34,629 nucleotides of DNA from Acidimicrobiales bacterium (GTDB taxonomy: Bacteria; Actinomycetota; Acidimicrobiia; Acidimicrobiales; JAHWLA01). Positions 779 through 32,822 of the stretch are shown here, piece by piece. The position numbers were made by a program, and so were the translations under genes. The stretch is taken from assembly GCA_035536915.1 (NCBI GenBank), contig DATLNE010000002.1:1-34629 (forward strand). The letters run 5' to 3'. The notes beneath the pieces were generated by a model. The model saw only the letters and a list, made by a program, of their open reading frames with translations, made no database searches and was not told where the DNA came from. Each line of letters opens with the position of its first letter. Within the stretch, counting starts at the first letter, position 1.

Positions 779-794
779 GTTAACTTCAGTTCAC
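779..794. promoter_or_regulatory. Putative operator, copy 1 (before atpD)
   Basis: The site reads GTTAAC-TTCA-GTTCAC, one perfect and one near-perfect half of the palindrome seen before most units in the window. It sits 29 bases upstream of the atpD GTG and downstream of the livHMG stop. Function is inferred from the repeated motif only. Confidence 0.5.
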
Positions 795-802
795 GGAGTA
801 TC

Positions 803-820
803 GACCGGACGTCGCCGGTC
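803..820. terminator. Small hairpin after the LivHMG fusion
   Basis: GACCGG and CCGGTC form a perfect 6-bp stem around a 6-base loop, starting three bases after the livHMG stop codon on the minus strand. There is no T-tract. It could attenuate read-through into atpD, but the stem is short. Confidence 0.25.
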
Positions 821-822
821 CG

Positions 823-31925: not shown

Positions 31926-32000
31926 CCGTGCCTCAACGACTGGCCGACCTGTTTTTCGTATCCTTTGGGCAGCTACGTCGTGTTCTGACGCAACCGCACC

Positions 32001-32762
32001 TCACTGGACTTGGCTGCGGCCCCGCTCGATGACGGCGGCGCGATCCCGAGCCACATCGTCGGGTCGCGACGCCTTCCGGTACGCGGAGCGGGCCTCGGCC
32101 TCGACGGCAAACCCGTCGCCGACGGCGACCTCTGCGACCTTGCGCAGGGCCGCCAGCATGGCCACGGCCGCCTCAGGATCGACGCCCGCGATGTCTTCGG
32201 CGAGCGCCAAGGCCGCGGGCAGCAGCTCCGGGTGAGGGACCACCCGATTGACCAACCCGAACCGGAGGGCCTCGTCGGCCGCCATGAAGTTCCCGGTGAC
32301 GCTCATCTCGATCGCCCGCCGCACGCCAATGGCGTGCGGCAGCAAAGCGGACAGGCCCCACCCAGGCAGAATGCCAACCCGCGCATGCGTGTCGGCGAAC
32401 GACGCTCGTTCCGAGGCAACGAGGAAGTCGCAGCGCAGGGCGATCTCGAGCCCGCCGGTGACTGCTGGCCCGTTGACTGCACCGATCACCGGCTTGCGGG
32501 TCTGCGGCCACGGCCGCGAGTGCCACTTGCGACCACGGAGGCCGCCGCTCTCTGATGCAAGGGCGCCGAGGTCGAGGCCAGCGCAAAACGCCGGGTCGGC
32601 GCCCGTCAGGACGATGGCCCGAACCCTTTCGTCGGCGTCGGCTTCCCCAAGCCGCGCCACCAGGAGGTCGATCATCTCCCCCGTCAGTGCGTTCCGGGCC
32701 TCGGGGCGGTCGAGGGTGATGACGGCGGCGCGGCCTTCGAGGCGCAGGGTCACGTGCGACAT
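32001..32762 (-). CDS. Crotonase-fold enoyl-CoA hydratase/isomerase family protein
   Basis: A 253-residue crotonase. FCAGLDLGALASES is the first oxyanion-hole segment and AVTGGLEIALRCDFLVASE the second. The first hydratase Glu is kept (GGLE), while the second position is His (SFADTHARVG), so the hydratase pair is incomplete. The ATG at 32762 has only a weak purine run upstream. It is divergent from the MBL-fold gene and ends 75 bases before the livG operator. It may be transcribed separately from the transporter genes. Confidence 0.9.
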   Translation of the reverse strand: MSHVTLRLEGRAAVITLDRPEARNALTGEMIDLLVARLGEADADERVRAIVLTGADPAFCAGLDLGALASESGGLRGRKWHSRPWPQTRKPVIGAVNGPAVTGGLEIALRCDFLVASERASFADTHARVGILPGWGLSALLPHAIGVRRAIEMSVTGNFMAADEALRFGLVNRVVPHPELLPAALALAEDIAGVDPEAAVAMLAALRKVAEVAVGDGFAVEAEARSAYRKASRPDDVARDRAAVIERGRSQVQ

Positions 32763-32806
32763 GCCCGAGTTGTAGCACCTTTATCAGGGTTCACGGGCGG
32801 ACTGGG

Positions 32807-32822
32807 GTGAGTCATCGTTAAC
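32807..32822. promoter_or_regulatory. Half-site of the putative operator, copy 14
   Basis: GTGAGT-CATC-GTTAAC: one perfect half and a poor partner, in the 68-base divergent gap between the crotonase (32762) and MBL-fold (32831) genes. Weakest member of the set. Confidence 0.4.

Follow-up and report, generated by a model that had tools for sequence, protein, structure and literature searches.

A predicted palindromic operator at the promoters of an acyl-CoA catabolic gene cluster, and a BkaR/Fad35R-like TetR protein as its putative binder

The window analyzed here, i.e. the whole stretch of DNA under study, is the entire contig C2 (34,629 bp) of a 3.23-Mb genome that is 99.5% complete and comprises 54 contigs. 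Its gene products include two Liv/Urt-type (branched-chain amino-acid) ABC importers, three acyl-CoA synthetases, acyl-CoA dehydrogenases, enoyl-CoA hydratases, a MaoC hydratase, a 3-hydroxyacyl-CoA dehydrogenase, an F420-type LLM oxidoreductase, hydrolases, and one TetR-family protein. Two products of the first importer operon are fusions: a single 781-residue frame (3765-6110, reverse strand) links an MFS_1 domain (residues 89-455) with an ABC ATPase of the LivF/UrtE type (about 523-757), and the adjoining 981-residue frame (823-3768) combines permease domains with a LivG-type ATPase.

At the left end of the window lies the N-terminal part of a second atpD gene (ATP synthase beta). Here, the final 43 bases of the reverse-complemented window recur as the 5′ end of another contig, C40, which carries the rest of the gene. 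This join was ambiguous at first sight, as the atpD halves of C2 and of a further contig, C18, end at the same place. It was settled by contig C27, which contains the C-terminal half of the other atpD copy and then a protein that reads as atpC (epsilon). Because C18, with the N-terminal half of that copy, pairs with C27, C2 is left with C40. Judged from the sequences, C2 and C40 are thus neighbors by exclusion and form a single catabolic cluster of ~53 kb. Across the join, the orphan atpD encodes ~483 residues; its identity to the C18/C27 copy is 86% over the N-terminal half and 97% over the C-terminal half. It has no atpC alongside, and its neighbors are an ABC transporter operon on one side and acyl-CoA genes on the other. 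The pathway genes of the cluster include a FadD of the PRK07798 type, EchA19-like hydratases, paired acyl-CoA dehydrogenases, a ChsH2-like protein, and a Thiolase_C_1 thiolase. By its predicted products, this gene content resembles that of sterol side-chain degradation, and the substrate may be an acyl chain that is branched or sterol-like.

The earlier note on this DNA had described a gapped palindrome ahead of nearly every transcription unit. Indeed, the 16-bp palindrome GNTAAC-N4-GTTANC is present at all of the sites listed there, and each definable transcription unit of the window is preceded by a site, some of them weak (22871, 32807). The window contains 12 copies of the word GTTAAC, as had been counted, 11 of them within the sites; the remaining one, at 25834, is intragenic. 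Only 1.1 copies are expected from 100 dinucleotide shuffles (maximum 4). The full pattern was found 12 times with at most one mismatch, and 22 times with at most two (2.9 expected). When the spacer was varied from 0 to 12 with at most one mismatch permitted, a spacer of 4 gave 12 matches, a spacer of 10 gave five, a spacer of 7 gave one, and all others gave none. Individual sites were scored with a symmetric matrix derived from 11 sites, with the site at 27072 left out. In a leave-one-out analysis, each matrix site outscored all other window positions but one, the further site at 27072. All 12 sites of at least 16 bits are intergenic, while gene models occupy ~93% of the window (P about 1e-14); the claim that the sites are nearly all intergenic is thereby borne out. 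Three copies had been called weak; this holds for those at 30327 and 32807, but the 27072 copy is stronger than was noted (Table 1). The shuffles, the spacer control, and the leave-one-out analysis, taken together with the genome-wide confinement and promoter phasing described below, leave chance or an artefact of composition with a negligible probability.

Two extensions of the pattern were rejected. The spacer-10 matches prompted a search for a third half-site at 10-bp steps, and no regular signal was found at ±10. A broader half-site, GNKAAC, had 143 matches genome-wide and the reversed control 136, i.e. there was no enrichment; halves such as GTGAAC and GCGAAC were therefore counted only beside a good partner half. 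A literature search found no paper describing this palindrome.

Table 1. Predicted operators in the window and on contig C40, with the genes they precede. Positions without a contig name refer to the window; scores are from the window matrix; distances in the promoter column refer to the site.
Feature	Position	Strand	Score (bits)	Promoter element	Genes and remarks
Second atpD, N-terminal part	1..750	-			GTG start at 750; rest on C40:1-745 (L037)
Operator	779..794	-	19.2	TTGACG, 32 bp before	28 bp before orphan second atpD
ABC transporter operon 1	SBP 7572-6079; MFS-ABC fusion 6110-3765; permease-ATPase 3768-823	-			From domain matches
Operator	7645..7660	-	18.8	-35 TTGTCA, 11 bp before	Heads ABC transporter operon 1
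Operator	7773..7788	+	18.0	TTGACG, 34 bp before	13 bp to 3-hydroxyacyl-CoA dehydrogenase 7802-8554
Operator	10088..10103	+	16.9		Before acyl-CoA dehydrogenase 10126-11352
Acyl-CoA synthetase operon	FadD 14430-12904	-			Then small protein, F420-type LLM oxidoreductase
Operator	14469..14484	-	18.2	-35 TTGACT, 11 bp before	Heads acyl-CoA synthetase operon
Operator	17641..17656	-	21.5	-35 TTGACG, 12 bp before	Acyl-CoA dehydrogenase pair and alpha/beta hydrolase 17523-14481
Operator	17718..17733	+	18.2	TTGACC, 34 bp before	Glyoxalase-fold protein and FadD 17768-20163
Operator	21938..21953	-	22.4	-35 TTGCCT, 12 bp before	MaoC hydratase and enoyl-CoA hydratase 21917-20186
Operator	22823..22838	-	20.7	-35 TTGCTC, 11 bp before	SMP-30/gluconolactonase-like gene 22814-21954; also upstream of divergent ECH-tetR unit
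Weak operator	22871..22886	+	13.1		8 bp before ECH (22895)-tetR (23818) operon
Weak site	23758..23773	+	10.7		In gap ahead of tetR
Putative TetR-family repressor, BkaR/Fad35R-like, proposed binder	23818..24444	+			PF00440 and PF17932; 4G12 match
Operator	27072..27087	-	17.3		Enoyl-CoA hydratase-FadD operon 26929-24457
Weak second site	30327..30342	-	12.2		Adjoins site at 30343
Operator	30343..30358	-	21.1	-35 TTGACC, 11 bp before	ABC transporter 2: SBP 30307-29090, permease 29053-27089
Operator	31910..31925	-	19.1	-35 TTGAGG, 11 bp before	Transporter 2 ATPase genes, about 31880-30421
Weak operator	32807..32822	+	13.9		Between divergent ECH 32762-32001 and MBL-fold hydrolase 32831-33862
Operator	C40:5008		17.6		Before SDR / ChsH2-like / thiolase / MaoC run
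Operator	C40:14341		20.6		Before third ABC importer; MaoC-MaoC-thiolase-SDR run on opposite side
Weaker C40 sites	C40:14418, 7155, 6075

Is the palindrome a feature of this cluster or of the genome at large? Genome-wide figures rest on pattern searches, the matrix being used to score individual sites. With at most one mismatch, 18 sites were found, 12 of them in the window, which makes up 1.07% of the genome (binomial P about 4e-20). Two of the six outside sites are on C40 (within 1-20000), and one each is on C10, C20, C31, and C53; the latter four score 11-12 bits except C10:56982 (17.1 bits), which is within or close to the start of an S13 peptidase gene. These counts favor a motif confined to the cluster. 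At two mismatches, the signal is lost in the background (235 matches vs. 281 for the reversed control pattern). The pattern TAACNNNNGTT, searched on both strands, matched 35 times in the genome and 15 times in the window. Its matches on contig C9 were considered as members of the same regulon and set aside because they read CCTAACGNNCGTTTG and better fit the PaaR word CNAACGNNCGTTNG (PMC6651687). This CCTAACGNNCGTTTG palindrome family occurs on C9 at 53825, 62585, 73518, 73545, and 77156 (L062, L063), with one copy preceding a thiolase gene, and probably represents a separate TetR regulon.

The position of the sites relative to promoter elements was examined for 14 strong sites, each oriented toward its gene. 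In eight of them, a TTG starts 11, 12, or 13 bp before the site; the best pair of adjacent offsets collects seven TTGs, a number reached in none of 20,000 shuffles. The -35 hexamers are of the types TTGAC, TTGCC, TTGAG, TTGTC, and TTGCT. With a TTG at this distance and a 17-bp spacer, the -10 element falls on the TA of the second half-site. The sixth base of the resulting TANNNT is T in 11 of the 14 sites (P about 3e-7, for a position picked after inspection). At 7773, 17718, and 779, TTGAC is found 32-34 bp before the site, which is then located 3′ of the -10. Both placements, overlap with the -35/-10 region or a position 3′ of the -10, suit a repressor that blocks RNA polymerase.

The coincidence of the second half-site with the expected -10 (TANNNT, 17 bp from the TTG) at most sites might also mean that the palindrome is a promoter class, its second half being merely the -10 of strong promoters. 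This we regard as very improbable: conservation and symmetry extend equally to the first half-site, which falls within the spacer, the sites at 7773, 17718, and 779 follow the -10, and the palindrome is very scarce elsewhere in the genome, where promoters are needed too.

If the palindrome is an operator, which protein binds it? The sole regulator recognized among the annotated genes of the cluster is the TetR protein encoded at 23818-24444, which contains an N-terminal TetR HTH domain (PF00440, 59 bits) and a C-terminal domain of TetR type (PF17932, 29.9 bits, with a cut-off of 26.4). Its best relatives of solved structure are Mce3R, which matches with two domains, and Fad35R/BkaR (4G12; E = 3e-29, 105 bits). 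Its own gene has weak sites upstream (23758, in front of the gene, and 22871, before the ECH-tetR unit), with the strong site at 22823 slightly further away.

Elsewhere in the order, the tetR genes closest to this one frequently have the palindrome upstream. In family f34, the palindrome is found 17 bp before the start of seven of them (L010, L013, L014, L092, L094, L095, and L097), and in family f9, one tetR (L015, genome G009) has sites at -72 and -44; these tetR-proximal sites in the two families score 16-24 bits and are located 17-72 bp before the start. The nearest homologue by score (genome G168, family f23) retains the ECH-tetR gene order with a 17.3-bit site before ECH, and this genome has further sites before an SDR gene and a Rieske oxygenase gene. 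Likewise, more sites in the f34 genomes precede an acyl-CoA dehydrogenase, thiolases, and an aldehyde dehydrogenase. An upstream site of at least 12 bits accompanies nine of the 16 best homologues and none of the 22 weaker ones (Fisher 7e-5, kinship ignored). The relatives are 34-39% identical to the window TetR, and most of the motif-bearing ones come from the single family f34. The palindrome is thus seen ahead of related tetR genes, or of the operons containing them, in three other families (f34, f9, and f23); five homologues of similar score (L009, L012, L091, L093, and L096) lack it. In a tree of these TetRs, the deep forks, including the position relative to mycobacterial BkaR, have no clear branching. 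Given the five motif-free homologues and these forks, we speak of a BkaR-like regulator, not of a proven orthologue. A contig scan of named genomes for close orthologues returned only distant TetRs.

Another regulator encoded elsewhere in the genome might bind the sites, with the cluster TetR having a different target of its own. The absence of a strong site immediately ahead of tetR and the presence of 16 further TetR matches in the genome would fit this explanation. We nevertheless consider it unlikely. The next genomic TetR is a far weaker match (E 5.7e-14 vs. 2e-137 for the window protein itself), the annotated cluster genes offer no other recognizable regulator, the palindrome accompanies relatives of the window TetR in other families, and kinship with BkaR predicts such an operator. 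The confinement of the sites to the cluster, the operators of the relatives, the promoter overlap, and the BkaR kinship favor a regulon of one local repressor with the window TetR as the likely binder, as first proposed.

The BkaR system is the closest known comparison. In mycobacteria, dimeric BkaR recognizes the 16-bp core sequence GTTA(N)T(N4)A(N)TAAC and represses itself and neighboring acyl-CoA genes; derepression was shown, and three operators were verified in each of two mycobacteria (PMC3920632). The DNA binding of Fad35R, which is the same protein, is weakened by palmitoyl-CoA (PMC4418694). BkaR/Fad35R (Rv2506, MSMEG_4718) is the closest single-TetR sequence of solved structure to the window TetR (38% identity over the aligned part). 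The two operators share a length of 16 bp, GTTA...TAAC ends, and a 4-bp center, and in both systems the operators lie at acyl-CoA catabolic genes around the regulator's own gene. They differ in the inner bases, which are AC/GT in the GNTAAC-N4-GTTANC found at most sites here and mostly N-T/A-N in BkaR. The window matrix gives the verified BkaR site at MSMEG_4920, GTTAATCATCGTTAAC, 21.4 bits and the other five verified sites 10-18. Since four of the six score below 12 bits, the two operators are similar without being identical. The number of operators also differs: three verified per mycobacterium vs. about 16 predicted here. No acc or bkd genes (acyl-CoA carboxylase, branched-chain keto-acid) were found in the window; that neighborhood is BkaR's own setting, not a trait of every BkaR-like TetR. 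The tetR of G009 is divergent from a carboxyltransferase gene, just as bkaR is divergent from accD1 in M. smegmatis (PMC3920632).

Other TetR regulators are more distant in sequence or in operator. The earlier note compared the sites with those of PsrA and KstR; BkaR/Fad35R is nearer, by its 38% identity and its 16-bp operator of the same layout. PsrA is likewise a TetR-family protein related to fatty acids, but the window TetR scores 28 bits against the PsrA model (cut-off 300), and the PsrA arrangement given in that note, AAAC-N2-4-GTTT, is a different word. KstR and KstR2 are likewise TetR repressors of actinobacterial acyl-CoA/steroid catabolic regulons. The window TetR reaches 24 bits against the KstR model (cut-off 280), the KstR2 structures are a much weaker match (4e-8, 36 bits), and AAC-N2-GTT, as given for KstR, differs from the layout found here. 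Membership in the SACE_7040 family (NCBIfam NF050111) was rejected at 136.6 bits vs. a curated cut-off of 250. Mce3R of M. tuberculosis, implicated in lipid and cholesterol genes, has TetR domains in the same sequence neighborhood as the window TetR (E 5e-32; two domains, 60 and 56 bits); it is a tandem TetR that acts on a nonpalindromic operator (PMC11667970).

We put at about 85% the probability that the palindrome is the operator of the BkaR/Fad35R-like TetR encoded at 23818-24444, a predicted repressor that would be released by an acyl-CoA derived from the cluster's substrate. A TetR dimer would bind GNTAAC-N4-GTTANC. At most promoters, the operator would lie between the -35 and the -10, with its second half-site forming part of the -10; at a few, it would be just 3′ of the -10. 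Without substrate, the bound protein would block RNA polymerase at about 16 promoters. A CoA-ester arising from the basal activity of the cluster may then accumulate and release the dimer, whereupon these promoters would fire together, inducing three ABC importers of the branched-chain amino-acid type, acyl-CoA synthetases, dehydrogenases, hydratases, thiolases, and accessory genes. An activating or dual function of the TetR at these sites, instead of plain repression, seems distinctly improbable. Some TetR relatives do activate, and NCBIfam lists FasR, a weak match (56 bits), as an activator; however, sites that overlap the -35/-10 or are just downstream of the -10 are in a blocking position, and BkaR is a repressor (PMC3920632).

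The predicted regulon would comprise the three ABC transporters, ~20 acyl-CoA genes, and the orphan second atpD. Control of both window transporters and the acyl-CoA genes had been anticipated; the predicted range is wider, taking in C40 with the third transporter, and the leftmost site (779) precedes the second atpD, not an acyl-CoA gene. Palindromic operators of TetR repressors are commonplace in catabolic clusters. The unusual features are the presence of about 16 operators in ~53 kb, the occurrence of a BkaR-type operator outside the mycobacteria, and an orphan second atpD behind a good operator. The result is a nearly complete, testable regulon prediction of one repressor, about 16 operators, and about 44 genes, and it suggests that the BkaR operator grammar (16-bp GTTA...TAAC) extends well past the mycobacteria. 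Because one and the same pathway is tagged by the operators, the three transporters and the ChsH2-, EchA19-, and FadD-like side-chain-degradation genes would constitute one functional unit, and the substrate of the cluster can be sought via the ligand of the repressor. The orphan atpD could encode a working F1-ATPase beta subunit that is made only on induction of the cluster and is exchanged into the ATP synthase. We think this quite unlikely; if true, the exchange would tie energy conversion to the cluster's substrate.

Three further observations concern the relatives. Tandem TetR domains in one frame (420 to 764 residues), reminiscent of Mce3R, are found in relatives of the host (L008, G004:C33; L018, G001:C219; L061, G055:C457). 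In family f34, a protein of 679-701 residues with no Pfam match is encoded divergently from a motif-bearing tetR (L045:3692-5731, L050:7816-9921). Finally, in two genera of f34, an operator of 17-19 bits precedes the gene for a 293-residue protein (L076:2026-2907, L081:1131-2012), which in L076 is an AAA-ATPase and thus not a target that one would expect of an acyl-CoA regulator.
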